Part shown: piece by piece, positions 4,074 through 24,403 of the stretch
Numbering within the stretch: the stretch's first letter is position 1
Layout of the letters: each line of letters begins with the position of its first letter
From: Novosphingobium sp. BW1
GTDB taxonomy: Bacteria > Pseudomonadota > Alphaproteobacteria > Sphingomonadales > Sphingomonadaceae
DNA: 64,000 bases
Assembly (NCBI RefSeq): GCF_008107685.1
Contig: NZ_VIRF01000081.1
Coordinates: forward strand, 1 to 64,000
Direction of reading: 5' to 3'
The notes under the pieces: model-generated
Databases searched by the model: none
What the model saw: the letters and a program-made list of their open reading frames with translations, nothing else
What the model was told of the DNA's origin: nothing
Made by a program: the position numbers and the translations under genes

Positions 4074-4790
4074 TCAGTAAAGCCCGCCTAGAACTCGCTC
4101 GAAGTGGGCATCGACATGGTCGTTGCAGGCGCAGGCCCGTTTCGCGAGGCCGTCGCGGTCCAGCACCTCGATGCCGCCGCGCCGTGTGCGCAGCAGGCCA
4201 TCGCGCTTGAAGCGCTGGAGAACACGGCTGGCGTAGCTGCGCCCGACCCCCATCATCGAGGCAAGCTGCTCCTGCGTCATCGTCACGCTGGGGCGGCCCA
4301 TGCGCGCCACGGCAGCAACCAGCCACTTGGCCGCCCGCTGCTCGATGGTGTGGACCGCGTTGCAGGCGATCGACTGGAACACTTGCGCCATGACGCAGTC
4401 GCTGTAGCGGCTCATCAGGTGTGCAATCGCCGGATTGTCGCGCTTAATGCGGTCAAGGTCACGCAGCGCTATGCGCTGGAAAACCCCGCCGTGGAGCACG
4501 TTGGAGCGGGCGAAAGCCGGCAGGTTGCCGTGGCTGACCACGCCGCCAAGTGCCCCTTCCTTGCCGATCAGGATGGTCTCGACGGCTACACCTTCATCCA
4601 TTTCGACAAAGTAGGAACTGATGGCCGAGCCGGTCGGAAAATAGCAATAATCGATATTGGTGCCCGGCTCGTAGAGCACCGCACCGGATTCAAAGCGGAC
4701 TTCCTCGACCGCAGAAGACAAGGCGTCGCGATCGCGCGCCTCCAACCGGTCCAGAAGAGCGTTGTCGTTGTTGAGGGCCATAGCGTCCAT
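4074..4790 (-). CDS. Crp/Fnr-family transcriptional regulator
   Basis: DNA-binding regulator, 238 aa, close to the family norm of 220-250. Residues about 10-140 form the cyclic-nucleotide-binding-like beta-roll (ESGAVLYEPGTNIDYCYFP, then ETILIGKEG). The C-terminal third carries the winged-helix HTH with MTQEQLASMMGVGRSYASRVL, the usual Crp/Fnr recognition-helix region. No Fnr-type N-terminal cysteine cluster is seen, so an Fe-S oxygen sensor is unlikely; the ligand is unknown. The start at 4790 has GGGAAG upstream; a second in-frame ATG lies 9 nt later. The gene is divergent from bphO-bphP. A GGAAC-N16-CGTT promoter and a TGACA-N5-TGTCA palindrome sit directly upstream, suggesting EcfG control and possibly autoregulation. 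Confidence 0.88.
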   Translation of the reverse strand: MDAMALNNDNALLDRLEARDRDALSSAVEEVRFESGAVLYEPGTNIDYCYFPTGSAISSYFVEMDEGVAVETILIGKEGALGGVVSHGNLPAFARSNVLHGGVFQRIALRDLDRIKRDNPAIAHLMSRYSDCVMAQVFQSIACNAVHTIEQRAAKWLVAAVARMGRPSVTMTQEQLASMMGVGRSYASRVLQRFKRDGLLRTRRGGIEVLDRDGLAKRACACNDHVDAHFERVLGGLY

Positions 4791-4841: not shown

Positions 4842-4866
4842 TAACGAGCCGATCCCGTGCATGTTC
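4842..4866 (-). promoter_or_regulatory. EcfG-type (general stress) promoter of the Crp/Fnr gene
   Basis: On the minus strand GGAAC (4866-4862) is followed after exactly 16 nt by CGTT (4845-4842). This is the consensus recognised by EcfG sigma factors in alphaproteobacteria. The -10 lies about 50 nt upstream of the ATG at 4790. Confidence 0.72.
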
Positions 4867-4881
4867 CTGACACGAACTGTC
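4867..4881. promoter_or_regulatory. TGACA-N5-TGTCA operator candidate
   Basis: TGACACGAACTGTCA is a perfect inverted repeat that abuts the -35 element of the crp promoter (minus strand) and lies about 60 nt upstream of the bphO -35 element. It has the same half-sites and spacing as the site at 155-169 upstream of the autotransporter. The position suits an activator, or a regulator shared by the two divergent genes. Confidence 0.5.
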
Positions 4882-4890
4882 ACTTTCGAG

Positions 4891-4910
4891 ATCTGTGCGC
4901 TAATGCACAG
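4891..4910. promoter_or_regulatory. second palindrome in the crp-bphO interval
   Basis: TCTGTGC at 4891-4897 and GCACAGA at 4904-4910 form a perfect 7-bp inverted repeat with a 6-nt centre. It lies between the two divergent EcfG-type promoters. The bound factor is unknown. Confidence 0.4.
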
Positions 4911-4944
4911 ACAGACGTGTCACACGCTGCTATTGCGTGCCTCA

Positions 4945-4969
4945 GGAACATTTCTCGAACCTTGACGTT
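4945..4969 (+). promoter_or_regulatory. EcfG-type promoter of the bphO-bphP operon
   Basis: GGAAC (4945-4949) and CGTT (4966-4969) are separated by exactly 16 nt, a perfect match to the EcfG consensus on the plus strand. It predicts a leader of about 135 nt before the bphO ATG at 5114 and places the phytochrome operon in the general stress regulon. Confidence 0.72.
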
Positions 4970-5113
4970 CGATCACACCGAACGCGACGTCCGATCGCGG
5001 TGCGTGGATCGCTTCCCCCTCATATAGCGCTTCTTGCAAATGGTGGCGGTTCAACTATTCGATCATGCAATGGATTTCCCGACGTTTATGACAAAGGCCC
5101 GGAAGACAAATAC

Positions 5114-5680
5114 ATGCTGAGCCATCTGCGCACAGTGACACGCGCGTCGCATGACCGACTCGATGCGGCCTTTGGCGCTCTCGACCTGAGCGCGGCGGAT
5201 GACTGTGCGCGCTTCCTTTCGGCCCATGCCATTGCTCTCAAAGGCCTTTCCACCCCCTTCCGCCGGTTCGTTGAGGAAGAACTCGACGTACCCTGCCCGG
5301 ACTTTCCCGCCATGCTCGCCGCCGACCTCACTGAGCGTGGTCTGGCGATGGAGGCGCTGCTCTCGCCCGAGCCCGATCCGGCCGTGCACGCGCCTTGTGG
5401 CGGGGCCGGAGTGGCCTATGTCATCGCCGGATCGCGCCTCGGCAACGCGGTGATCCGCGCCGAGGGATACCACGGGCGCGACACCGGGCTGCCCTCGCGC
5501 TACATGGAAGACGATACTGGCCACGCCGTCTGGAAGGCCCTTAGCACCTGGGCGCGCGCGCGCAGCTTCGGTCAGTCCGAAGCGCGTGCGATCGAAGCCG
5601 CTGCCCTTGCCACTTTCGCTCACTTCGAGACCGCCTTCGCCGTCGGGTCGAACATGGAGACACCTCGCGCCGATGGCTGA
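5114..5680 (+). CDS. bphO: biliverdin-producing heme oxygenase (BphO type)
   Basis: Cleaves heme to biliverdin, the chromophore of the bacteriophytochrome encoded next. The protein is 188 aa from the ATG at 5114, with GGAAGA eight bases upstream; the open frame extends further upstream but without family similarity. It opens with MLSHLRTVTRASHDRLD, whose His (about residue 13) corresponds to the proximal heme ligand in the BphO/HmuO family. Overall similarity is the divergent bacterial BphO kind rather than HmuO. The stop overlaps the bphP start (ATGGCTGA), so the two are translationally coupled. The upstream EcfG-type promoter ties chromophore supply to stress induction. Confidence 0.82.
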   Translation: MLSHLRTVTRASHDRLDAAFGALDLSAADDCARFLSAHAIALKGLSTPFRRFVEEELDVPCPDFPAMLAADLTERGLAMEALLSPEPDPAVHAPCGGAGVAYVIAGSRLGNAVIRAEGYHGRDTGLPSRYMEDDTGHAVWKALSTWARARSFGQSEARAIEAAALATFAHFETAFAVGSNMETPRADG

Positions 5681-8240
5681 AGACCAACACCAAGTCGATC
5701 TTACCACCTGTGACCTTGAACCGATCCACATCATCGGACGGATCCAGAGTTTCGGCTGGCTCATCTCATTTTCGAGCGACTGGATCATCAATCACGCCTC
5801 GCGCAACTGCGACACGCTGTTCGGGCAGAGCGCGGAAGACCTGATCGGCCTCAACGCCGCGCAGTTCCTCTCGCCCAGCGCGATGCACGACATCCGCTCG
5901 CGCCTGCAGATCCTGGGCGCGGCCGGCACGGTCGAACGGATCTTCGAGTTGGACCTCCTGAGCGACGGGCGCCTCTTCGATCTTGCCGTGCACACCTCGG
6001 GCCGGTCCTTCGTGGTCGAGATTGAGGAGCACGAAAGCGGCCGGCGCCGCGACTTCGTCTCCTACGTGCGCCCGATGATCGAGCGCATGCGCCAGACAGA
6101 AACCACCGAGAAACTGTGCGCGAGCGCCGCGCGCCACCTGCGTGGCCTCACCGGCTTCGACCGGGTCATGGTCTACCGCTTTTCGGAAGAAGGCGCCGGC
6201 GAAGTCATTGCCGAAAGCCTCAACGGCCTCGTGGATAGCTTCAAGGGCCTGCACTTCCCGGCCTCCGACATTCCCAAGCAGGCGCGCAAGCTCTACACCC
6301 GCAATCTGCTGCGTATCATCACCGACATCGATGATCCCACTGTGCCGGTGATCCCGGCCACGGGCCCGACCGGCGATCCGCTCGATCTTTCGATGTCGGG
6401 CCTGCGCGCGGTATCGCCCATTCACATCGAGTACCTGCGCAACATGGGGGTCAAGGCCTCGATGTCGGTATCGATTATGCGCCGAGGCAAACTGTGGGGC
6501 CTGATGGCCTGCCATCACTACAGCCCGCTGCGCCTGTCCTACTCGGTACGAACCGCAGCCGAACTGTTCGGCGAGTTCTTTGCCTACCTCCTCGAGCAGA
6601 AGGAAACCGACGCGGCTTTTGAGCGTCGTGGCGATTCAATGAAGCTGCACGACGAGATTATGAGCCGGGTCGCCGGGGGCGGTTCGTTACTCGACGCCTT
6701 TGGCGACTTCAGCCAGTCGATCGGGCGGGTGATCAGCTTTGACGGTGCAATCGGCTGGGTTGATGGCGAGTTCATGGCCGACGGGCTCACTCCGACCCGC
6801 ACACAGTTCGGCCAGCTCGCCCGTTTCCTCAACACCGCGGGCGCCAGCACCGTGTGGGCCACCGACAACATCACCGCGATCTTCGACCCTGCCCGCGAGT
6901 GGGCGGACAAGGCCGCGGGCGTCATGGCCCTGCCCGTCAGCCGCAGCCCGCGCGACTACATCGTGCTGTTCCGCAAGGAGCAGCTGCGCGAGGTGAACTG
7001 GGCGGGCAACCCCGAAAAGTCGGTCGAATTTGGTCCCAACGGTTCGCGCCTCACCCCGCGCAAGAGCTTCGACCTGTGGAAGGAAGAGCGCCGGGGCTAT
7101 TCGCGGCCCTGGACCGAGGAGGAAGTGTCCGCTGCGGAATCGCTGCGCATCACCCTTTTGGAAGTCGTCCTGCGCATGTCGGACGCAGCCCATGCCCAGC
7201 GCGAACAGGCCAGCCAGCAGCAGGACATGCTGATCGCCGAACTCAACCACCGCGTGCGCAACATCCTCAACCTTATTCGCGGCCTCGTCTCGCAGAGCAA
7301 GGACGGCGCCAGCACCATCGACGAATTCGCCGAGATCGTCGGCAGCCGCATCCATGCCCTCGCCCGGGCGCACGACCAGGTAACCGAGAAGGACTGGCGC
7401 CCGTCCTCCTTCTACGACCTTATCCGCACCGAAACCGCCGCCTACGCCGGCCACGGCACGGACCGCGTCGTGATCGAGGGCCCCGATGCCCTTATCGCCC
7501 CCAGCGCCTTCACCACGCTAGCGCTGGTCGTCCACGAGCTGATGACCAACTCTTGCAAGTACGGCGCGCTGTCGGACAGTCAGGGCTCGGTTCATGTTAC
7601 TATCGCGCGCAGCGACGATGGCGCTCTGGAGATCGACTGGCGCGAGGAGCACGGTCCGCCCGTCACTCCACCCTCCCGGCGTGGCTTCGGCTCGACCATC
7701 ATCGAGCGTACCATCCCGCATGAACTGGACGGCAGCGCCTCGGTTATCTACCCCGAAGCCGGAATGCAGGCCTTCTTTCTCATTCCCAGTGACCATATCG
7801 CGACGTTCGAGACCCCCGGTGCGGACCCCCGCCAGGGTGTGATCGACGTGCCCGATGGGACCGATCTTCGCGCACAGCTGCCCGAAGGCGCTGCCCTCAT
7901 CGTCGAAGACAATGTCATCATCGCGATGGAGGCCGAGGACCACATGCGCGCTTGCGGCTTTAGCGATTGCCGTGTGGCGGGATCGGTGGCGGCCGCGATA
8001 AACCTTGTTGAGAACACCGATATCGCCTTCGCCATGCTCGACATCAATCTGGGCAGGGACACCAGCGCACCGATCGCCGAAGCCCTGCGCGAAAGGGGCA
8101 TAGTCTTCATCTTCGCCAGTGGTTATGGCGAGCGGACGCTGCCCGAAGGCAACTTCACCGGCGTTCCCGTAGTGACCAAGCCTTACGGTGAGCGCGACTT
8201 GCGCTCGGCCATCGCCCGGGCCAGCGCGGAACAGCGTTAA
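5673..8240 (+). CDS. bphP: bacteriophytochrome hybrid HWE histidine kinase with C-terminal receiver
   Basis: Red/far-red photoreceptor kinase, 855 aa. Order: PAS with the biliverdin-binding Cys at residue 13 (TTCDLEPIHIIGRIQSFG), GAF with PASDIP (about 197-202) and the conserved SPIHIEYLRNMGV, PHY with the PRKSF tongue motif, HWE kinase with phospho-acceptor His526 in AELNHRVRNILN, the N-box HELMTNSCKYGALS and WREEHGP, then a receiver (from about 741) with phospho-acceptor Asp790 in AMLDINLG. The receiver has FASGYGER, resembling the FATGUY-type receivers linked to sphingomonad stress signalling. It lies in the general stress locus, so its kinase output may feed PhyR or the nearby single-domain regulator; that is inference. 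Confidence 0.92.
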   Translation: MAEDQHQVDLTTCDLEPIHIIGRIQSFGWLISFSSDWIINHASRNCDTLFGQSAEDLIGLNAAQFLSPSAMHDIRSRLQILGAAGTVERIFELDLLSDGRLFDLAVHTSGRSFVVEIEEHESGRRRDFVSYVRPMIERMRQTETTEKLCASAARHLRGLTGFDRVMVYRFSEEGAGEVIAESLNGLVDSFKGLHFPASDIPKQARKLYTRNLLRIITDIDDPTVPVIPATGPTGDPLDLSMSGLRAVSPIHIEYLRNMGVKASMSVSIMRRGKLWGLMACHHYSPLRLSYSVRTAAELFGEFFAYLLEQKETDAAFERRGDSMKLHDEIMSRVAGGGSLLDAFGDFSQSIGRVISFDGAIGWVDGEFMADGLTPTRTQFGQLARFLNTAGASTVWATDNITAIFDPAREWADKAAGVMALPVSRSPRDYIVLFRKEQLREVNWAGNPEKSVEFGPNGSRLTPRKSFDLWKEERRGYSRPWTEEEVSAAESLRITLLEVVLRMSDAAHAQREQASQQQDMLIAELNHRVRNILNLIRGLVSQSKDGASTIDEFAEIVGSRIHALARAHDQVTEKDWRPSSFYDLIRTETAAYAGHGTDRVVIEGPDALIAPSAFTTLALVVHELMTNSCKYGALSDSQGSVHVTIARSDDGALEIDWREEHGPPVTPPSRRGFGSTIIERTIPHELDGSASVIYPEAGMQAFFLIPSDHIATFETPGADPRQGVIDVPDGTDLRAQLPEGAALIVEDNVIIAMEAEDHMRACGFSDCRVAGSVAAAINLVENTDIAFAMLDINLGRDTSAPIAEALRERGIVFIFASGYGERTLPEGNFTGVPVVTKPYGERDLRSAIARASAEQR

Positions 8241-8256
8241 AAAGGGCGCATTCGCG

Positions 8257-8282
8257 GGAAACAAAAGCGTGTCCTACCCGTT
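8257..8282 (+). promoter_or_regulatory. possible EcfG-type promoter of the hemerythrin gene
   Basis: GGAAAC (8257-8262) is followed after 16 nt by CGTT (8279-8282). The -35 has one extra A compared with GGAAC, so this is a weaker match than the other sites in the window. It lies 44 nt upstream of the ATG at 8326. Confidence 0.4.
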
Positions 8283-8325
8283 GTTATTGGCAAAACCGAC
8301 AACCACAGGATTTGGAGACGCACCC

Positions 8326-8808
8326 ATGGCAGACGCACGGATCTTCGCCGATCTCAAGGCCGACCACGACCGTCACCGCGACATACTGGCCAAGCTCGGC
8401 GATACGCACGGGAACAGCGAGGAGCGCCGCACGCTCTTCGCTGCCCTCAGCAAAGAACTGCAGGCCCACGCCGCCGCTGAAGAAGAATCGCTTTATGCGG
8501 CCATGCTTGCCGCGCCCAAGCTGCGCGATGAAGCGCGCCACTCAGTCGCCGAACACAAGGAGATCGACGATTTCCTCGCCGAACTGGCCGACACCGACAT
8601 GAGCAGCAACGCCTGGCTGATGACCTTCAAGGACATGCGCCATCGCTACCTGCACCACATTGAGGAGGAGGAGGAGGACATGTTCCCCGCCGCCGCAGAA
8701 GGCCTTAGCGCCGAAACCGAGGCCAAGATCGCCAAGGTCTTCGAAAAGCGCAAGCCCAAGGAGCTGGAACTCGCCGAGGACCAGGGCCCGGGTGACGAGC
8801 GCGAGTAA
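8326..8808 (+). CDS. hemerythrin HHE-domain protein
   Basis: Predicted non-heme di-iron, four-helix protein of 160 aa, probably cytoplasmic. The metal-ligand pattern is visible: DHDRHRD near residue 14, HAAAEEESLY near 48, AEHKEID near 80 and HHIEEEEEDMFP near 112. The acidic, lysine-rich tail lacks further domains. The start at 8326 is preceded by GGAG about 10 nt upstream; the frame is open further upstream but overlaps the bphP end. It is a likely stress gene that could bind oxygen or iron or repair iron-stressed proteins; the exact function is not deducible. A weak EcfG-type promoter precedes it and a strong terminator follows. Confidence 0.85.
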   Translation: MADARIFADLKADHDRHRDILAKLGDTHGNSEERRTLFAALSKELQAHAAAEEESLYAAMLAAPKLRDEARHSVAEHKEIDDFLAELADTDMSSNAWLMTFKDMRHRYLHHIEEEEEDMFPAAAEGLSAETEAKIAKVFEKRKPKELELAEDQGPGDERE

Positions 8809-8911
8809 GGCATACCACAGACACCGGGCGAGCGCCCCCCACCGCGCTCGCTCCGTACCTTTGGGAGAGAGAGCGAACCGTCATCCCCCGCCGGGATCGC
8901 TCCTTGAGAGG

Positions 8912-8945
8912 AGGCCTCTTTCGTTATGCGGAAGAGGCCTTTTTT
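8912..8945 (+). terminator. rho-independent terminator after the hemerythrin gene
   Basis: AGGCCTCTT (8912-8920) pairs with AAGAGGCCT (8932-8940) and is followed by a T-run. The interval 8809-9108 holds no gene; it also contains GCGAGCG/CGCTCGC arms at 8828-8851 and a GGGAGCAG/CTGCTCCC palindrome at 9014-9030. Confidence 0.85.
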
Positions 8946-9050
8946 CGTAGGCGGGGCTCAGCAGCCCCGGCCACTCTACCGCCCCGCTCTTCCGCATGTA
9001 TTGCCAAAAAGTCGGGAGCAGACTGCTCCCTCCATTGGCCAACGCATGAA

Positions 9051-9084
9051 AAAGGGCGCCGTCCCTCTTGGAACAGCGCCCTTT
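9051..9084 (-). terminator. terminator of the single-domain response regulator gene
   Basis: AAAGGGCGC (9051-9059) and GCGCCCTTT (9076-9084) form a stem with T/A runs on both sides, so it can stop transcription in either direction. It lies just downstream of the minus-strand response regulator. Confidence 0.8.
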
Positions 9085-9108
9085 TTTGAAGGCAGGATGA
9101 TCCCGAGC

Positions 9109-9528
9109 CTAGCTCGAAGCCATCGAAAGCTTGTCGAGACCGGCCGGACGGGATCCCTCCGGGCACCCATCCAAGACATAGCGGATAGCCGCAAGGATCG
9201 ATTCCGGTCCGAATGGTTTCTGGACCACGCCCACCGCGCGCGACGCCGGATCGCCAATCTGCGCCGGGTTGGCCGTGACGTAGATCACATGGGCCCCGAA
9301 CTTGTCGCACAGATCACGCGCCACTCCCGGTCCGGTCAGTCCGTCACGCAGATTGAGATCGACCAAAGCAATGTCCGGGCGCACCCGGTTTTGCGACAGC
9401 GCATCGAGCGCCGAGCGTTCGCTTACGGTTCCGACCACCGCGTGCCCCCCATCCATAAGGATATCTTCAAGCTGCAGGGCGAGCAGAAATTCGTCTTCGA
9501 CAATCAGGATATTGGCCGCGTGGGGCAT
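9109..9528 (-). CDS. single-domain response regulator
   Basis: Stand-alone receiver, 139 aa, with no output domain. The acidic pocket is in NILIVEDEF, the phospho-acceptor is Asp57 in ALVDLNLRDG, the switch Thr is in VIYVTANP and the Lys is in QKPFG. The sequence resembles the PhyR receiver more than a CheY type. The start is taken at MPHAAN (9528); an upstream in-frame extension would overlap the sigma factor gene and looks non-coding. It lies downstream of the second EcfG-like gene with a 64-nt gap holding a CCCCTTTTAAGGGG-like element, so it may be co-transcribed. A likely role is a phosphate sink or adaptor between HWE kinases and PhyR. Confidence 0.85.
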   Translation of the reverse strand: MPHAANILIVEDEFLLALQLEDILMDGGHAVVGTVSERSALDALSQNRVRPDIALVDLNLRDGLTGPGVARDLCDKFGAHVIYVTANPAQIGDPASRAVGVVQKPFGPESILAAIRYVLDGCPEGSRPAGLDKLSMASS

Positions 9529-9592
9529 GGGGACACAAGGATCCAGCTGGGGCGAAGCCCCCTTAAAAGGGGCACACCGAATGAGTGGGAAA

Positions 9593-10228
9593 TCAGGCCG
9601 CGATGCGGCGCAGCTCCTCGACGTTGGAAACCTTGCCCAGTTCGGCAAAGAAGGCGTCGATCGCCTCGCCGGTAAGCACGAATTCATGGCGCGAGTCCGG
9701 CAGCTGGCCCGACTCGATGATCTTGGAAAGCATGGCCCGCGCGCGGCAGATCCGGCTCTTCACCGTGCCCAGCGCAATATCGCAAATGCTCGCGATTTCC
9801 TCGTAGGAAAGATGGCCCGCAGCGACCAGTATGAGTGCTTCACGATAGTTGGCCGGGATCGCCTCCAGAGCGCGCAGGACATCGGCCAGCTCGATAGCGC
9901 TTTCCTGGGTCGCATCAGTGCGCAGGATACGCTCAGCAGCCAGTTCATCGTATTCGCCATGGAAGCGCGCGCGGCGTGCCTCGGAATAGAAATGGTTACG
10001 CAGAATCGTGAAGGTCCAAGCCTTGAAGTTGGTGCCCGCGGCATAACGCTCGCGTGCAGCCCAAGCCCGCAACATCGCCTCCTGTGCCAGATCGTCGGCC
10101 CGATCGCGGTTGCCACAAAGGCCCCGTGCAAAGGCACGCAGGTGCGGCGCGACGTCGGCAAGCGCGCGCTTGAACTCTTCGTCCGAAAGCGCCGTGGTTT
10201 CGCCGGCTTCGCTAAGCTGTGCGGTCAT
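9593..10228 (-). CDS. EcfG-like ECF sigma factor (second copy)
   Basis: RNA polymerase sigma factor, 211 aa. Region 2 shows HLRAFARGLCGNRDRADDLAQE and FKAWTFTILRNHF; region 4 shows YREALILVAAGHLSYEEIAS and LGTVKSRICRAR. Both halves closely resemble the EcfG at 14430-14960, but this copy has a longer linker and an extra tail of about 35 residues ending in EELRRIAA. The start at 10228 has a strong GGAGGG about 10 nt upstream. Its own promoter fits the EcfG consensus (10264-10289), implying auto-amplification or a cascade under the primary EcfG. The gene is divergent from phyR. Confidence 0.9.
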   Translation of the reverse strand: MTAQLSEAGETTALSDEEFKRALADVAPHLRAFARGLCGNRDRADDLAQEAMLRAWAARERYAAGTNFKAWTFTILRNHFYSEARRARFHGEYDELAAERILRTDATQESAIELADVLRALEAIPANYREALILVAAGHLSYEEIASICDIALGTVKSRICRARAMLSKIIESGQLPDSRHEFVLTGEAIDAFFAELGKVSNVEELRRIAA

Positions 10229-10263
10229 CTGGATTACCCTCCGTTGAATTCCGTTATGAGGCC

Positions 10264-10289
10264 AACGTGAAGCGGGCGTGAAAAGTTCC
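10264..10289 (-). promoter_or_regulatory. EcfG-type promoter of the second EcfG-like sigma gene
   Basis: On the minus strand GGAAC (10289-10285) is followed after 17 nt by CGTT (10267-10264), 36 nt upstream of the ATG at 10228. Spacing and both hexamers fit the EcfG consensus. Confidence 0.75.
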
Positions 10290-10422
10290 GGAATGCACAC
10301 ATCGCATGGTCCATCAGCGACAAAGCGCTCCATGCGTGCGATGAATTGAAATTCTCACGTGCAACCACCGCACAATCGAAAAAAACCTTTCTTCGGGGGA
10401 ACACATGCCGCGCCCAAACTTT

Positions 10423-10456
10423 GAGGCCTCCGATCATGCTCGTGATCGGAGGCCTC
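10423..10456. repeat. strong isolated hairpin in the phyR upstream region
   Basis: GAGGCCTCCGATCA (10423-10436) and TGATCGGAGGCCTC (10443-10456) are perfect reverse complements with a 6-nt loop. Only two T residues follow on the plus strand. No gene ends here, so it may terminate a small RNA or shape the phyR leader; this is unresolved. Confidence 0.6.
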
Positions 10457-10764
10457 TTGGGATCAGGTTGACGCCGGATCGCGGGGGGTGGGGGTGGTCC
10501 CGGCGGCAACACAGGCGTAACGCCGCTTCCGGAAATTCGTTCCCGGGATCGGCCGCGCGGAGGAAAAATTTTGATGTTGCTCTCAAGGCAGCTCCGCGCC
10601 AGACCTTGAACGAGGTTCGCGCGCCAAAGCTGGCTAGGGAAAGGCCCGGACATCCCGTTCCGGTACAGCCCCAGCCCGATCGCGCCGCGCCCGACGCCGT
10701 TCCCCTCTTCAGGGAGCACGGACGGGTACACAGGAAATACAGATTGCAAGGACGAGGAATACGG

Positions 10765-11562
10765 ATGTCCGTCTCAGATCAGATCGCACTGCAGCTTCCC
10801 TATCTACGCCGCTATGCACGTGCGCTCACCGGCTCCCAGCAGTCCGGCGATACCTATGTGCGCGCAACGCTTGAGGCCGCGCTGGCCGATACCGAACTGC
10901 GTAGCTCCATCGCACGGAGCCGCGCGGCCCTTTACGGGGCTTTCACCCGGATATGGACGACCGGCCACGTCGAAGGTGAACTCGGCTCTGATCTTGCCGA
11001 CAACCGTCATGAGCAGGCCGCCCAGGCGCGTCTCTCGACAATTGCCCCGACCCACCGCCAGGCTCTGCTCCTAAACACGGTGGAGGAATTCAGCCGCGAG
11101 GATACCGCCGCGATCCTCGACGTCACGCCCGACGCCGTCGACGCCCTGATCGGGCAGGCCATTGCCGAGATTGAGGGCGAAAGCGCAACCCGCGTCCTCA
11201 TCATCGAGGACGAGCCCCTGATATCGATGCAGCTCGAAAGCCTCGTCTCGGATGTGGGCCACACGGTTGTGGGCACCGCGGCCACGCGCACGCAGGCCCT
11301 TGAAATGTTCGAGCGCGAACCCGCCGGGCTCGTCCTCGCCGACATCCAGCTGGCCGACGGCAGCTCGGGGATCGACGCGGTGGAAGACCTGCTTAAGTTT
11401 GGTGACGTGCCGGTGATCTTCATCACCGCTTATCCTGAACGCCTGCTCACCGGCGAACGCCCGGAGCCTACCTACCTCGTGACCAAGCCGTTCAAGGAGG
11501 CAACCGTGCGCGCCGCGATCAGCCAGGCGCTGTTCTTCGGTTCGAGCAAGCCCCTAGGCTGA
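10765..11562 (+). CDS. phyR: general stress response regulator PhyR
   Basis: Master regulator of the alphaproteobacterial general stress response, 265 aa. Residues 1-135 are a sigma-factor-like (EcfG-mimic) domain; residues 142-262 are a receiver with IIEDEP, phospho-acceptor Asp193 in LVLADIQLADGSSG, Thr in FITAYPER and Lys in TKPF. When phosphorylated, PhyR sequesters the anti-sigma factor NepR and so frees EcfG (established for the family). The start at 10765 follows AGGACGAGGA; the longer upstream frame is not similar to PhyR. Its partners nepR and ecfG lie 2.7 kb away, and two HWE kinases flank it. A strong bidirectional terminator follows. Confidence 0.95.
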   Translation: MSVSDQIALQLPYLRRYARALTGSQQSGDTYVRATLEAALADTELRSSIARSRAALYGAFTRIWTTGHVEGELGSDLADNRHEQAAQARLSTIAPTHRQALLLNTVEEFSREDTAAILDVTPDAVDALIGQAIAEIEGESATRVLIIEDEPLISMQLESLVSDVGHTVVGTAATRTQALEMFEREPAGLVLADIQLADGSSGIDAVEDLLKFGDVPVIFITAYPERLLTGERPEPTYLVTKPFKEATVRAAISQALFFGSSKPLG

Positions 11563-11585
11563 GGCTCCAGCTTCCACGTTCCTGC

Positions 11586-11622
11586 AAAAAAGGGGCCGTC
11601 CTAGTGGGACGGCCCCTTTTTT
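11586..11622. terminator. bidirectional rho-independent terminator
   Basis: A six-A run, then GGGGCCGTCC, a short loop, GGACGGCCCC and a six-T run form a symmetric hairpin between the convergent phyR and the unknown gene at 11644. It can end transcription from both sides. Confidence 0.9.
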
Positions 11623-11643
11623 CATGTCCGCAGGCGGCGAGCC

Positions 11644-12036
11644 TCAGGCCGCGAGCGACAGCTCCGCTTCGACCAGCGCCTGCGCATAGGCCGCAAGGAG
11701 AGCGAGAGCAGGTGTGCGCGCTGTCGCGGTGGCCTCGGCACCATTGCGTCTATCGAGCCGCACGCTCGCACAGGCCAGTGCACCACGTCCCGCCTGCGAA
11801 ATCATCCTGGCACAGTACCCCGGCAACAACGCAAGAGCCGCATCGGTATAGGCATCCACGGAGAGAAAACGGGCGGCGCGAGCCTCCGCGCGCGCATTGA
11901 GGCCCTGGTGCTTGCTGAGGAACTGCATCATCGCCACTAGGCAGGCGCCCTGCTGCTGGTCCTCGGCATCGCTGCAGAAAAGCGCAATCTCGTCCGCCTG
12001 CGCAAGCCAACGGCTGGCCCTGATGGTGCAACCCAT
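11644..12036 (-). CDS. hypothetical protein in the general stress locus
   Basis: I do not recognise this 130-residue protein. It is alanine-rich (about a quarter of residues), probably alpha-helical and soluble, with no signal peptide or clear membrane segment. Four cysteines are spread through it (MGCTIRASRW, LFCSDAED, GACLVAMM, PGYCARM), plus ALACASV. The ATG at 12036 is chosen because AGAAGGA lies about 10 nt upstream; the frame continues upstream without a good start. It sits between phyR and the CHASE-HWE kinase in the same orientation as the kinase, with its own terminator, so a link to stress signalling is possible by position only. Confidence 0.6.
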   Translation of the reverse strand: MGCTIRASRWLAQADEIALFCSDAEDQQQGACLVAMMQFLSKHQGLNARAEARAARFLSVDAYTDAALALLPGYCARMISQAGRGALACASVRLDRRNGAEATATARTPALALLAAYAQALVEAELSLAA

Positions 12037-12214
12037 GTCTCGTTTTCCTTCTGGTCTTGTTCTCGGCTCTGGTTGCGGCTGCGACCCGCTTTTGCGCTGC
12101 AGCATTACCAGGGCCCGAAAGCAAGCCTCGGAAAAATACCTAAGAAGCAACTATATATCTGAAAACGATGGAGAAGCGCCGCGCAGCTGAATTTTCCCGG
12201 CAGGCCCCTCAAGG

Positions 12215-13936
12215 CTACTGGCTACGCAGGACGAAATCGCGAGAGACACGCACCGGAACCTTGAGTTCGCACTCAACGCCGCCAGGCTTGAACTCGAGAT
12301 TGACCTGCGACTTCAACTCATGCGCCACGATCTTCTCGATAAGATCGCGCCCGAAGCCACGCTTGACCGGTTCGGTCACCGGCGGGCCGCCCTTTTCGCG
12401 CCAACGGATTGTTGCCCGATCATGACAGATGAGAGCCCAGTCGACGTAAACCCGGCCTTCGCCGACACTGAGCGCGCCGTACTTGGCTGCATTGGTCGCC
12501 AACTCGTGGATGGCGAGGCCCAGTGACATCGCATCGTTGGGTGCAAGCTTGATGTCGGGGCCCGACATCTCGACGTGGCTCTCGCTGCCTTCCATGTACG
12601 GCGCCAGCTCGGAGGCCACGACATCGCCCAGGGCCGCGAAGCCCCAGTCCGATTGCGAAAGGAGGTCATGCGTAGCCGACAGCGCACGGATGCGCGCGGT
12701 CAGACTGTCGGTGAAGTCATCGATATCCCTAGAGCGGCGCCGAGTCAGCGCGGCGATCGACAGCACATTGGCCAGCGTGTTCTTCACGCGGTGGTTGAGT
12801 TCACGCGTCAGCGAATCCCGGATCGAGGCCTGGCTGCGCAACCATTCGAGCACCCGTCGGTCTTCGGCGGCACGCTTGGTGATAAGCCGCCCGATGGCCA
12901 TGACCATGAGCGAGGCGATTGCCCCGAAAAACAGCGTGATGCGCGAAAGCGGCGAGAGCAGACGGCTCTTCTTGTCGCGCACCTGCAGCACCCAATGGTG
13001 CCCTGCGACTTCCAGACGGCGGGCCAGCATGGGCCCGCCGGTCCCCTCGACACGGTGCTCGGCGAGCAGATTGGCCGGATCCACCTTCTCGTCGTAGATC
13101 GCCATCTCAAGGCGCGAACTGGAGAAAAGCTCACTTGCCGAATCGAGAAATTCGCTCGCCTCGAACGGCGAATAGATGAACCCCTTGACCCGTTTGCCTC
13201 CCCATGTGTCGACAAGAACGGGCATGTAGATCAGGAACCCGGCCGAATCATCTCCGCGACCGTTCTGGATCAGACGAACCTTGCCCGAGGCAATCGGTTG
13301 CGCCAGCTCCATCGCCTTTTCCATCGCGGCGCGGCGCACGTCTTCCGAATACATATCGTAGCCGATCGCGCGCAGGTTGGCGGCGCTTGCAGGACGCAAA
13401 TAGACAATGGGCGCCACCAATTCGTCGCCCGCTTCCGGACGCGGATGGACGAGAAAATCGACCCGCCCCGCCTCGGCCTCGGCCACTTCAAAGGCCGCCA
13501 GGTCCTTGCGCTGGACCAGAGGAGCCCAGCCAATCCCGAGCGATCCGTAGAGGTCTCCCTCGTGCTGCATGTCCCCGACGAATTCAGCGAACTGATCCTG
13601 GCTTACCTCCTTCTGCGTCGCGAAGAGCGCGCTGCCCGCGCGCAGCAAGGCAATAGTCTCGGTGGCACGGCGCTGCAGCGCGGACGAGACCTCGGTCATG
13701 CTGCTTTCCAACGCAAGGCGGCGCGTTTCACGGTCAGCGCGCTCAATCGCCATGACCGAGACAGCCGTCGTCACGCTTGCAATAACGAAGAGAAGGAATG
13801 GCCAGCCACGCGGATACTTGTGGAACCATGCCTGCTTTTCGACCCTGTCCAGCAGAGGCTGGTCAACCACCGTACATACCCCCAAGATCCGCTCCGGCCG
13901 ATCTTCGGCCGCTTCGTGCGGTGCAAATTCGTCCAT
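12215..13936 (-). CDS. CHASE-domain membrane sensor HWE histidine kinase
   Basis: Predicted inner-membrane sensor kinase, 573 aa. A TM helix at about 44-64 and a second at about 333-352 bracket a periplasmic CHASE domain (about 80-310, including LYGSLGIGWAPLVQR and LRAIGYDMYSED). The HWE core follows, with phospho-acceptor His382 in TRELNHRVKNTLANVLSIA, the N-box IHELATNAAKYGALSVGEG and WREKGGPPV. HWE/HisKA_2 kinases of this layout phosphorylate PhyR in related bacteria (PhyK/PhyP-like role), and the gene sits divergent to nepR-ecfG, so it is a strong candidate for the PhyR kinase. Its upstream palindromic site is a candidate EcfG promoter, which would make feedback. Confidence 0.9.
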   Translation of the reverse strand: MDEFAPHEAAEDRPERILGVCTVVDQPLLDRVEKQAWFHKYPRGWPFLLFVIASVTTAVSVMAIERADRETRRLALESSMTEVSSALQRRATETIALLRAGSALFATQKEVSQDQFAEFVGDMQHEGDLYGSLGIGWAPLVQRKDLAAFEVAEAEAGRVDFLVHPRPEAGDELVAPIVYLRPASAANLRAIGYDMYSEDVRRAAMEKAMELAQPIASGKVRLIQNGRGDDSAGFLIYMPVLVDTWGGKRVKGFIYSPFEASEFLDSASELFSSSRLEMAIYDEKVDPANLLAEHRVEGTGGPMLARRLEVAGHHWVLQVRDKKSRLLSPLSRITLFFGAIASLMVMAIGRLITKRAAEDRRVLEWLRSQASIRDSLTRELNHRVKNTLANVLSIAALTRRRSRDIDDFTDSLTARIRALSATHDLLSQSDWGFAALGDVVASELAPYMEGSESHVEMSGPDIKLAPNDAMSLGLAIHELATNAAKYGALSVGEGRVYVDWALICHDRATIRWREKGGPPVTEPVKRGFGRDLIEKIVAHELKSQVNLEFKPGGVECELKVPVRVSRDFVLRSQ

Positions 13937-14016
13937 GCCATGGCATGCCGCCCGCCTCCAGCCTACCCATTAATTTCTTCTAATTCGGCGGCATGTTGCG
14001 AGACACTTGTCATTCG

Positions 14017-14043
14017 GGAACCATGCAGCCCCCCAATGGTTCC
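14017..14043. promoter_or_regulatory. palindromic, possibly bidirectional EcfG-type promoter
   Basis: GGAACCAT (14017-14024) and ATGGTTCC (14036-14043) form an inverted repeat. On either strand the order reads GGAAC, 17 nt, GTT, which fits the EcfG spacing with GGTT instead of CGTT at -10. On the plus strand it points at nepR-ecfG (leader about 200 nt) and on the minus strand at the CHASE kinase (about 75 nt). The remaining interval 13937-14251 has no gene. Confidence 0.55.
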
Positions 14044-14251
14044 GTGTGTAAGAGCAATTTGAGCAGCACTTCGCAGCTGTATCCGCCCGCAGGTCAGCCC
14101 GTTCAGGCAACCCGGGCGACGAGAATGACACAAGCGATCCGGGCGCGTCTCGCCCGGCACGCTGGGGGAAGAATTGCGCGGCACACTGCCCGTGCAAGGC
14201 TTGACCGGCGTGCCTACGGGCCGCAAGGAGCTTTGAAGCAAGGAGTCAGCT

Positions 14252-14437
14252 TTGGACCACCCCAAATCGAATGGCCAACCCGGCGAGATACCGGGTCTCC
14301 CGCCGGAGGTTCGCCGCGACGGCGAGCCCGGCTGGGCCGGTGGATTGAGGAAGCTGTACAACTCCGTGGTGGATGAACCGCTGCCGGACAGCTTCCAGGA
14401 TCTCCTGAAGAAGCTGGACGACGGCGACGATGCCTGA
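14252..14437 (+). CDS. nepR: anti-sigma factor NepR
   Basis: Small anti-sigma factor that holds EcfG inactive until phospho-PhyR binds it. It is 61 aa, starting at TTG with AAGGAG seven nt upstream. The NepR signature is present: GLRKLYNSVVDEPLPDSFQ, the conserved helix that binds PhyR and EcfG, followed by an acidic lysine-rich end (DLLKKLDDGDD). The stop overlaps the ecfG start by 8 nt, so inhibitor and sigma factor are made together. The N-terminus is short, proline/glycine-rich and probably disordered. Confidence 0.92.
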   Translation: MDHPKSNGQPGEIPGLPPEVRRDGEPGWAGGLRKLYNSVVDEPLPDSFQDLLKKLDDGDDA

Positions 14438-14960
14438 GCGGATAACGCCTCCCTCGGGCGACGAGGCATTCCGCCGCGAACTCATGGGGGTGCTGCCGCA
14501 CCTTCGCGCTTTCGCACGCGGCCTGTGCGGCCGTCATGACTTTGCCGATGACCTGGTCCAGGAAACCGCGGTCAAGGCCTGGACCGCGCGCGAGCGTTAC
14601 CAGGTCGGCACCAACATGCGCGCCTGGACCTTCGCGATCCTGCGCAACCACTACCTGTCCGAGCTGCGCAAGTCCAAGCGCCACACCGACGTCGAAGACG
14701 CAGACATGGAGCGTATGCTGGTCATGGAAGCGGACCAGGAGGGGCCGGTCCATCTGGGCGACATGGAAGCCGCGCTTCAGAAACTGGCGCCCGAACGGCG
14801 CGAAGCCGTCCTGCTGGTGGGCGCTTCGGGCTTCAGTTATGAAGAGGCAGCCGATATCGCAGGTTGTCCGATCGGTACGATGAAGAGCCGCGTGGCCCGT
14901 GCCCGCACCGATCTTACCCGCATGCTGGCCGACGAACCCGAGAAAATCGGGGCGCGCTAA
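14430..14960 (+). CDS. ecfG: general stress ECF sigma factor EcfG
   Basis: Sigma factor of the general stress response, 176 aa. Region 2 has HLRAFARGLCGRHDFADDLVQET and MRAWTFAILRNHYLSE; region 4 has ERREAVLLVGASGFSYEEAADIAGCPIGTMKSRVARAR. It overlaps nepR by 8 nt (ATGCCTGA), the arrangement typical of nepR-ecfG pairs. Compared with the paralogue at 9593-10228 it lacks the C-terminal extension and matches the usual EcfG length, so I take it as the primary EcfG. It should drive the GGAAC/CGTT sites seen in this window. Confidence 0.93.
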   Translation: MPERITPPSGDEAFRRELMGVLPHLRAFARGLCGRHDFADDLVQETAVKAWTARERYQVGTNMRAWTFAILRNHYLSELRKSKRHTDVEDADMERMLVMEADQEGPVHLGDMEAALQKLAPERREAVLLVGASGFSYEEAADIAGCPIGTMKSRVARARTDLTRMLADEPEKIGAR

Positions 14961-22835: not shown

Positions 22836-24014
22836 TCAGGCGACAGTTGGCACATACTTGATCGACATGAGGTCGCGATGAACGACGGAGGAACGCGGTG
22901 CGTAGCCCAGGACCGTCTGCTGTTCATTCGAATGCAGGCGCCGAATCGCGTGGATCTCCTTGGCGTCGTACTCGGACAGGCCATTGGCGACAACGGTTCC
23001 TTCCGAATTGACAATGGAGACCGGATCGCCGCGGCGGAAACGCCCGTCGACATCGATCACGCCCTTGGCGAGCAGGCTCGCACCCTCGTGGATCAGCGCC
23101 TTCATCGCGCCGTCATCAATGATGATCTTGCCCTTGGTGCGCAGGCGTCCACCCAGCCACACTTTGCGCGCTCCCGGCTTGCTGGCCCCGCGGCGGCGGC
23201 GCGGCAGGAACAGCGTGCCCACGCCCGCCTCGTCACGCGAGCCCATGACCCGCTCGACCGGACGTTCATGGAAACCGTTGCCGATGACGACGCAGGCGCC
23301 CGCGATCGCGGCGATTTCAACGGCCTGAAGCTTGGAGACCATGCCGCCCGAACCCATGCCGGAATTCGATTCGGTCGAGGCCATGGCCTTGATCTCGGGC
23401 GTGATGCCCTTGACCACTTCGAGCCGCGTGGCGCCCGGCTCCTTGGGGTGGCGATCGTAGAGGCCGTCAATGTCCGACATCAGCAGGACCGAGCTGGCGC
23501 CAGCGGCCTGCGCTACGCGCGCGGCCAGGCGGTCGTTGTCGCCAAAGCGCAGTTCCTGCGTGGTGATCGAATCGTTCTCGTTGATGACAGGCACCACGCC
23601 AGCATCGAGCAGGCGTTCGATTGTCGCGGTAATGTTGAGGTAGCGGCGGCGATCTTCAAGATCCATCAGCGTGACCAGCATTTGCGCAGCGGTCAGGCCG
23701 TGGTTGCCAAGGAGCTGGGCCCACATGCCCGAGAGCGCGATTTGGCCTACGGCGGCCGAAGCCTGCGCATCGGCAAGCGAGCCGCGCCCGCCCTTGTCGA
23801 GGCCCAGCGTACGCGCGCCCAGGGCCACTGAGCCCGAGGACACGACAATGACATTCTGCCCCCGCCGACGCGCTTCGGAGATTTCACCGACGAGGCCGTT
23901 GAGCCAGACCGTACGGACCCCGTCATCGTCGACAAGAAGGGACGAACCCACCTTGATAACGAGACAGGGATTGAGTTCAGGATCGGCGAGGTCGGAAAGT
24001 TTGGTAATAGGCAT
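22836..24014 (-). CDS. proB: glutamate 5-kinase with PUA domain
   Basis: First enzyme of proline synthesis: phosphorylates glutamate. It is 392 aa. The amino-acid kinase domain (about 15-260) shows VIKVGSSLLVDDDG, VVSSGSVALGARTLGL, PVINENDSI, FGDNDRLAARVA and SGMGSGGMVSKLQA. A C-terminal PUA domain follows (about 290-375, with KGVIDVDGRFRRGDPVSI). The start at 24014 is picked by family fit; the frame runs on upstream without similarity. It follows obgE on the same strand after about 390 nt. The proC gene, which completes the pathway, is 4 kb away. Confidence 0.95.
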   Translation of the reverse strand: MPITKLSDLADPELNPCLVIKVGSSLLVDDDGVRTVWLNGLVGEISEARRRGQNVIVVSSGSVALGARTLGLDKGGRGSLADAQASAAVGQIALSGMWAQLLGNHGLTAAQMLVTLMDLEDRRRYLNITATIERLLDAGVVPVINENDSITTQELRFGDNDRLAARVAQAAGASSVLLMSDIDGLYDRHPKEPGATRLEVVKGITPEIKAMASTESNSGMGSGGMVSKLQAVEIAAIAGACVVIGNGFHERPVERVMGSRDEAGVGTLFLPRRRRGASKPGARKVWLGGRLRTKGKIIIDDGAMKALIHEGASLLAKGVIDVDGRFRRGDPVSIVNSEGTVVANGLSEYDAKEIHAIRRLHSNEQQTVLGYAPRSSVVHRDLMSIKYVPTVA

Positions 24015-24403
24015 AAGCTCGGCTTCTAGAAGAATTGCGCAAGAGTGCAAAGGTGGACCCAACGAACCGGCGCAGCGTACCGGCATTTCGGCACGCGGAA
24101 GCCGCACGAAAGTCCCCTTTTCGTGCAGTGAGCATTTTTTAACGCAGCCACATCTGCAATGTTCCCTCTCACATCCCTCTTTTCGCCCCTGCACAAGATC
24201 CGCCTCGGCCGCTCTGACGCGGATCCTAGGCGCGAAAGGCGAATCACCTGCAGGAGACAAAGGCCGCAGATGCGACCCTCTCCGGCCCAAACGAACAGCG
24301 CGCAGGGGGCACCTGGCCTCCTGCGCGCTCATCGCGTCCAATGATGATGGTGGCGCGGCCAAAGCTTAGGCCGACTCTGGCTGAACCGCGCTAAACTACC
24401 GAA
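24015..24403. other. obgE-proB interval with a terminator-like hairpin
   Basis: No gene is seen in these 389 nt. A GC-rich hairpin at 24298-24329 (AGCGCGCAGG arms around CACCTGG) lies 75 nt beyond the obgE stop and could attenuate or end the obgE transcript. A proB promoter must then lie in the remaining 280 nt, but I could not identify it. Confidence 0.5.

Follow-up and report, generated by a model that had tools for sequence, protein, structure and literature searches.

Light input to the general stress response is established for LOV kinases (PMC8092228, PMC12148442). The LOV-HK and LovK proteins of Brucella, Erythrobacter, and Rubellimicrobium carry a flavin-based blue-light sensor on an HWE kinase that is linked to PhyR–NepR–EcfG. 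In Sphingomonas melonis, a relay has been described that runs from Pak to SdrG, then to PhyT, an HRxxN protein whose ATPase domain is degenerate, and finally to PhyR (PMC5898713). Bathy phytochromes of Agrobacterium and Allorhizobium are described as HWE hybrids with a C-terminal receiver (PMC11021371). A phytochrome input to the PhyR stress response was not found in the open-licence literature that we searched, and a subscription paper may exist. Here, we analyzed a 64,000-nucleotide stretch of Novosphingobium sp. BW1 (contig NZ_VIRF01000081.1, positions 1–64,000; “the window”), in which an operon of a predicted heme oxygenase gene (bphO) and a bacteriophytochrome gene (bphP) lies beside phyR, nepR, and ecfG. 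The operon very likely belongs to the EcfG regulon, because its promoter is conserved across relatives, and we somewhat favor the view that bphO–bphP feeds light signals into the general stress response and is in turn induced by it.

The locus shares features with each of the three systems. As in the LOV kinases, a photosensor is joined to an HWE kinase at PhyR–NepR–EcfG, and the kinase core of BphP matches the LOV blue-light kinase model NF052306. In contrast to these kinases, BphP is a bilin phytochrome instead of a flavin LOV protein, is expected to sense red/far-red instead of blue light, and possesses a fused receiver; its input to PhyR is putative. Agp2 (AtBphP2) of Agrobacterium fabrum has the same PAS-GAF-PHY-HWE-receiver layout, and the lengths of tongue and linker and the marker residues of BphP are those of bathy proteins. 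In contrast to Agp2, the Novosphingobium bphP follows bphO in one operon with an EcfG-type promoter, next to phyR–nepR–ecfG, and the photochemistry of its product is predicted from the sequence. With S. melonis, the locus has in common HRxxN kinases, an SdrG-like receiver, and the PhyR–NepR–EcfG output. However, the SdrG-like receiver is fused to a kinase here, no standalone SdrG was found, and the HWE protein encoded at the phyR locus shows no sign of degeneration in its motifs.

The bphO–bphP operon and its promoter

The island spans 4.0–15.0 kb of the window in the order crp/fnr-type gene, bphO, bphP, hemerythrin, receiver, sigma factor, phyR, CHASE-HWE kinase, nepR, and ecfG, so that the single-domain receiver, the sigma factor, phyR, the CHASE-HWE kinase, and nepR–ecfG lie 0.9–6.2 kb downstream of bphO–bphP. 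The features are as follows.

4074–4790 (−), Crp/Fnr-type regulator gene, divergent from bphO (PF13545, E 4.8e-16)
4843–4867 (−), EcfG-type promoter toward the crp gene (exact GGAAC-N16-CGTT)
4945–4969 (+), EcfG-type promoter of bphO–bphP (exact GGAAC-N16-CGTT)
5114–5680 (+), bphO, heme oxygenase, with a presumed function in biliverdin supply (ortholog profile and weak fold match)
5673–8240 (+), bphP, PAS-GAF-PHY-HWE kinase-receiver hybrid phytochrome (PF08446, PF01590, PF00360, PF07536)
7893–8213 (+), C-terminal receiver of BphP, SdrG/Sma0144-like (phmmer and Foldseek, see below)
8257–8282 (+), EcfG-like promoter of the hemerythrin gene (GGAAA variant, one mismatch)
8326–8808 (+), hemerythrin-domain protein (PF01814, E 1e-16)
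9109–9528 (−), single-domain receiver, PhyR-receiver-like, second gene of the sigma operon (best solved match 2n9u)
9593–10228 (−), second ECF sigma factor, EcfG-like (PF04542, PF08281, PF22029)
10264–10289 (−), EcfG-type promoter of the sigma-receiver operon (exact site with N17)
10765–11562 (+), phyR (PF22029, PF22233, PF00072)
12215–13936 (−), membrane CHASE-HWE histidine kinase with intact catalytic motifs (PF03924, PF07536)
14017–14043 (both strands), palindromic GGAACC-N15-GGTTCC site that reads as an EcfG promoter both ways
14237–14437 (+), nepR open frame, start codon not fixed (PF18557 at 14327–14425, E 6.5e-12)
14430–14960 (+), ecfG, following and overlapping nepR (PF04542, PF08281)

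Gene content and order agree with a preliminary description of this DNA, which placed bphO–bphP near phyR, a single-domain regulator, and two sigma factors (9593–10228 on the minus strand and 14430–14960 on the plus strand, the latter following nepR). To that list we add nepR, the hemerythrin gene, and the CHASE-HWE kinase gene. The operon itself had been correctly recognized, but not its start: position 4842 takes in the divergent crp promoter, whereas ortholog alignment sets the start of bphO at ATG 5114. bphP starts at ATG 5673, with an 8-base overlap with the end of bphO, and the two genes form an operon. NepR (PF18557) has a single match in the whole genome, and the phytochrome is therefore located in the sole NepR locus. 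BphP is the only phytochrome detected in the genome and one of its six HWE kinases; no recognizable photosensor was seen by eye in the other five, in which the LOV cysteine motif was looked for. The closest named relative is N. profundi, whose BphP is 95% identical.

As a single sequence, bphO matches neither Pfam nor NCBIfam, nor does any of 18 aligned members match Pfam. Its ortholog profile matches the heme oxygenases 1sk7 (E 1.9e-10) and 1j77 (E 4.8e-10), which also rank first, weakly, for its predicted fold (E 1.3e-3 and 2.8e-3). By its sequence, bphO is a member of the heme oxygenase family that escapes the Pfam and NCBIfam models for this family, its kinship being visible by the ortholog profile only. 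In three related loci (L014, L021, and L028), no bphO match was found between crp and bphP, so that biliverdin would need another source there.

The published general-stress promoter reads GGAAC-N16/17-C/GGTT (PMC12148442). The perfect match that had been noticed ahead of bphO–bphP is the site at 4945–4969. Exact GGAAC-N16/17-CGTT occurs at 63 sites in the 4.46-Mb genome, and six of these fall in the window compared with ∼0.9 expected (Poisson P 3.5e-4). With the C/GGTT form, the window holds eight sites, six of them within 4843–14043, against a mean of 1.63 in shuffled sequences, 1 of 100 of which reached eight.

For a comparison with relatives, we collected 25 loci with a BphP at least 59% identical (24 from Novosphingobium and one from Sphingosinicella). 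A Crp/Fnr-type gene adjoins bphO/bphP in 24 of them, and the contig of the 25th (L010) begins there. The window and these 24 loci provided 25 crp-to-bphP regions, which are not independent; L002 and the window, for example, come from almost the same species. Sites were counted in the published C/GGTT form (strict) and, separately, with TGTT also allowed (loose), which lies outside the published consensus; the CGTT form was dropped as the sole test, since most relatives lack it. Toward bphO/bphP, 9/25 regions carry a strict site and 15/25 a loose one; toward crp, the counts are 14/25 and 19/25. Dinucleotide shuffles (500) gave means of 0.26 (strict, forward), 0.33 (loose, forward), and 0.31 (strict, reverse) with maxima of 2, 3, and 3, and the reversed and complemented control patterns were found in 0/25 regions in either direction. 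The distance from the site to the bphP match is 671–741 bp in 13 of the 15 regions, the exceptions being L004 (526 bp) and L028 (266 bp; one of the loci without a bphO match), and the spacers have diverged between species. Overlapping two-way sites (TGTT allowed) lie between crp and bphO in L006, L007, L008, L020, and L023.

Other genes of the island provide a yardstick for the motif. Ahead of the sigma-receiver operon, an exact CGTT site is present in 21/21 upstream regions, and the hemerythrin gene has a site within one mismatch in 22/22 (2.0 expected). The receiver gene, which is second in its operon, shows no promoter of its own (3/22 within one mismatch, 2.0 expected). Over the same 25 loci, site density per kb and strand is 0.619 in cluster upstream regions (94 sites) compared with 0.039 elsewhere (36 sites); these regions were partly set by tblastn cross-hits and overlap, which dilutes the density and does not raise it. 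Counts upstream of phyR and ecfG obtained by tblastn were discarded, as they contained cross-hits from the BphP receiver and the second sigma gene, respectively.

The promoter also occurs where bphP stands apart. No stress-cluster gene was found within the examined flanks of bphP in L016, L017 (contig end), L020, and L022, and three of these (L016, L020, and L022) retain a site 684–713 bp ahead of bphP. Among four orthologs from Maritimibacter, Pseudooceanicola, and Poseidonocella, two carry a site (L025 and L027, from Maritimibacter and Pseudooceanicola; 668 bp ahead of bphP). The remote orthologs L026, L030–L032, and L034 have none, and L029 has a TGTT site alone, at 797 bp.

Gene linkage is likewise conserved. 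The receiver and second sigma genes adjoin bphP in 21 of the 25 loci, and phyR lies within the examined flank in 17; in the other four of the 21, the examined DNA ends before phyR. Together with the promoter counts, this island supports the earlier picture of a phytochrome that sits in the stress regulon and is controlled by it. In the Novosphingobium loci L018 (17399–19120), L019 (17420–18988), L024 (17528–19069), and L033 (7798–9348), an extra GAF-PAS-HWE kinase (GAF and PAS by eye) stands upstream of the receiver gene on the same island.

At the level of the genus, 41 of 119 Novosphingobium genomes encode a PHY domain and 88 encode NepR. All 41 phytochrome genomes have NepR compared with 47/78 without a phytochrome (P 1.5e-7, uncorrected for phylogeny or genome size), and in at least 18 of the 41, a PHY protein of any kind lies within 17 kb of NepR (a hand count and, given draft contigs, a lower bound). 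All 12 searched genomes with unlinked, contig-cut, or remote BphP orthologs also have NepR, which is weak evidence, because most relatives have NepR anyway. Among 69 Sphingomonadaceae genomes, one per genus, 31 have PHY and 61 have NepR. The linkage of phytochrome and NepR is seen in Novosphingobium only, whereas the promoter is seen more widely.

Several further observations concern the promoters and genes of the window. The palindromic site at 14017–14043 falls between the CHASE-HWE kinase gene and nepR–ecfG. The second EcfG-like sigma gene (9593–10228), itself behind an exact EcfG promoter, coexists with the nepR-linked ecfG. A 130-amino acid open frame adjoining phyR (11644–12036, minus strand) has no Pfam match and is kept in part of the relatives. 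Outside the island, an exact EcfG-type site at 24141–24165 (minus strand) lies within the upstream end of a proB-like glutamate 5-kinase frame (22836–24362, minus strand; named by eye), ahead of the likely start.

BphP as a probable bathy-type kinase with an SdrG-like receiver

BphP comprises PAS, GAF, PHY, and HWE kinase domains (PF08446, PF01590, PF00360, and PF07536, the last with E 3e-20), followed by a receiver, with Cys-13, His-526, and Asp-790 as key residues. The N-terminal biliverdin-type Cys-13 and the motifs PASDIP and PRKSF are those of bacteriophytochromes. HWE kinases are recognized by an HRxxN histidine box, a histidine in the N box, and WxE in the G1 box, and BphP features HRVRN (with His-526), HELMTN, and WREE. 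These assignments uphold the description of BphP as an HWE kinase with its own C-terminal receiver bearing FASGYGER. Of the NCBI models that bear a name, NF052306, for LOV blue-light kinases, gives the best match to the kinase core (E 4e-37), though the unnamed NF010077 scores higher (E 7e-41). These matches, and those of the receiver, fall below whole-protein cut-offs, as expected for single domains. The nearest solved relatives of BphP are 6g1y and its variants (E 5e-124), which we take to be Agp2.

Hallmarks reported for bathy phytochromes include a 37-residue PHY tongue (5 residues longer than in DrBphP), a glycine at PRXSF −8, an arginine at PRXSF −3, a histidine at LWGL +5, an HWE output, and a shorter linker, all described as typical of, and not exclusive to, this group; Gln/Arg positions of the chromophore pocket are also named (PMC12362586). 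BphP shows all six that were tested: a tongue of 37 residues, the glycine, the arginine, the histidine, the HWE output, and a linker of 47 residues (3 shorter than in DrBphP). We therefore assign BphP with good confidence to the predicted bathy phytochromes. The kinase of bathy phytochromes is reported to be off in darkness and active in the red-absorbing (Pr) form, and the four members with measured autokinase activity show their lowest activity in darkness (PMC11021371). Because all tested hallmarks are bathy and bathy kinases are active as Pr, BphP is probably off in the dark and switched on by far-red-containing light instead of being a plain red-light sensor. The preliminary description as a red-light photoreceptor thus stands for the phytochrome itself and probably fails in its emphasis on red light.

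The receiver of BphP falls below the Pfam cut-off for PF00072 and is nevertheless clear by phmmer against solved structures, where the first of 13 relatives are 2lpm (E 1e-16), presumably Sma0144, and SdrG (5ieb, E 3e-13). Its matches among NCBI models are a receiver model without a name (E 2e-15) and that of the PhyR family (E 3e-14). Its predicted structure (mean predicted local distance difference test score 88) lacks a helix between strands 4 and 5, where the score is lower, at 69–83, and the top Foldseek match is SdrG (E 4e-8, template-modeling score 0.81). VIA-align does not separate SdrG from CheY for this receiver (Z 16.5 and 17.3), ranking SdrG level with many CheY entries, and we did not use it for the FAT GUY assignment. 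In a receiver tree of 27 rows, including nine of 18 aligned BphP receivers, BphP groups with SdrG, Sma0144, and the C68 hybrid kinase, set apart from PhyR and the single-domain receivers of the window type, with a support of 97/95 that has to be read with caution in view of long branches. A SdrG or FAT GUY identity of the 9109–9528 receiver was ruled out, as its best solved match is the PhyR receiver 2n9u and it falls on the PhyR side of the tree (97/95).

FAT GUY receivers carry FAT with a threonine. The BphP of the window has FIFASGYG, with serine for threonine (FIFATGYG in 2lpm), and threonine is found in L026, L030–L032, and L034. Of 33 other Agp2-type loci examined, 31 contain a FAT GUY-like stretch, some of them far from phyR; L028 is frameshifted, and L022 has lost the receiver. 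In the latter (Novosphingobium sp. Leaf2, bphP unlinked; 10001–12145), BphP ends after 715 residues with the kinase core kept. The likeness to FAT GUY receivers that had been pointed out is supported by the closest sequence matches and by the Foldseek ranking; as a sign of a tie to PhyR, the motif alone is weak.

A proposed path from BphP to the stress response

Taken together, the locus suggests a light-gated circuit. The regulon promoter, the gene linkage, the domain layout, the bathy hallmarks, and the SdrG-like receiver are visible in the sequence; the photochemistry, the transfer of phosphoryl groups to PhyR, and an activating effect of light are inferred. EcfG would transcribe bphO–bphP and, divergently, the Crp/Fnr-type regulator gene. 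BphO would make biliverdin, which would bind to Cys-13 of BphP. In darkness, BphP would rest in the far-red-absorbing (Pfr) form with its kinase off; in far-red-containing light, it would convert to Pr with its kinase on. It would then autophosphorylate at His-526 and pass the phosphoryl group to its own SdrG-like Asp-790, to PhyR, or to both. PhyR~P would remove NepR from EcfG, and EcfG-dependent transcription would rise, that of bphO–bphP included. We lean toward BphP feeding PhyR; if it does, light rather likely activates the stress response and does not brake it. In the simplest arrangement, BphP would phosphorylate PhyR directly, and the fused receiver would act as a modulator. A bolder one is that the fused receiver takes over the task of SdrG.

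Several observations weigh against this circuit. Across the genome, exact promoter sites are outnumbered by those of the reversed control pattern (63 compared with 110), and no site toward bphO/bphP, strict or loose, was found in 10 of the 25 regions (L005, L009, L011, L014, L015, L017, L019, L021, L024, and L033). The co-occurrence of NepR and phytochromes may reflect genome size and phylogeny, and outside Novosphingobium, PHY was found within 20 kb of NepR in 0/30 phytochrome genomes (a hand count; several are drafts with the genes on separate contigs). The FAT GUY-like motif alone is weak evidence for wiring to PhyR, because this receiver type is common to most Agp2-type orthologs, also far from phyR. 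Finally, membership in the regulon makes a gene an output and need not make it an input.

This last point defines a rival account that is possible but rather doubtful: stressed cells would make BphP as one of many EcfG-regulated products, and BphP would signal elsewhere, e.g. to the 9109–9528 receiver or other regulators, and not to PhyR. The promoter evidence demonstrates EcfG regulation and is silent on input, the bphO–bphP promoter is retained in the three loci where bphP is unlinked from the cluster, and Agp2-type receivers also occur without linkage to phyR. However, the HWE class, the LOV-HK-like kinase core, and the Sma0144/SdrG-like receiver are features of stress-response inputs, and bphP is linked to the core regulators.

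An input of opposite sign appears unlikely. Here, BphP would lower PhyR~P in the light, either through a receiver that drains phosphoryl groups or through phosphatase activity of its kinase core, and darkness would thus favor the stress response. Reports of a dark-activated stress response in Erythrobacter litoralis, from genetic work, and of a dark-on LOV kinase in Rubellimicrobium (PMC12148442) fit such a brake; fused receivers can serve as sinks, and the receiver aspartate of Agp2-type phytochromes is reported to influence kinase activity (PMC11021371). No residue examined here separates a kinase from a phosphatase bias, and the low dark autokinase activity of the four bathy phytochromes described above argues against it.

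The S. melonis relay is not recognizable in this genome. A search with SdrG as the query returned no standalone SdrG; the matches were the receivers of the C68 hybrid kinase (43% identity) and BphP (38%), PhyR (32%), the PhyR-like receiver (36%), and four with E >0.01. Nor is there a recognizable PhyT: by eye, all seven HWE/HisKA_2 proteins of the genome, including the one at the phyR locus, keep their ATPase motifs. The CHASE-HWE kinase (12215–13936) was ruled out as PhyT, known here by description alone, since its N, G1, and G2 motifs are intact by eye. In a sample of 20 nepR regions from the 61 NepR genomes of the family, a relative of this kinase (44–50% identical) stands next to ecfG in 15, with phyR on the other side in 13. 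All three motif patterns matched in 12 of these 15 relatives, and inspection by eye showed the misses (L086, L094, and L095) to be small variants. The protein next to ecfG in L103 was likewise rejected as a degenerate PhyT, as its sequence is that of a HisKA_2-type ATPase with recognizable motifs.

These searches bear on a third account, in which the receiver of BphP, and not His-526 directly, is the donor and replaces a standalone SdrG, signaling through the CHASE-HWE kinase to PhyR much as in the SdrG–PhyT–PhyR route. The missing standalone SdrG and the position of the CHASE-HWE kinase in the phyR–nepR interval are consistent with it. Nevertheless, we regard it as quite improbable, because the ATP-binding motifs of this kinase are intact, unlike those reported for PhyT (PMC5898713), and direct transfer from kinase to PhyR is simpler. 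That neighborhood and promoter match arose by chance is hardly credible: a lone motif match would be weak, given the genome-wide counts above, but conservation across 25 loci, controls of 0/25, and retention of the site in unlinked loci argue otherwise.

What phytochromes do in heterotrophic bacteria is still described as enigmatic (PMC11021371). The tie of bphO–bphP to PhyR–NepR–EcfG by regulon and gene order gives a phytochrome a concrete and testable role, in which light would set stress readiness. If BphP acts as a light input, such inputs to the stress response extend from blue light, sensed by LOV kinases, to red and far-red light. The natural fusion of a kinase to an SdrG-like receiver offers a system for asking what decides between direct transfer and relay in PhyR networks. 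It is doubtful, yet conceivable, that a bathy phytochrome whose fused SdrG-like receiver replaces the standalone SdrG serves as a far-red stress input and that its EcfG-driven synthesis creates a light-gated positive feedback with memory. In that case, one stress episode would make the cell more light-responsive to the next.

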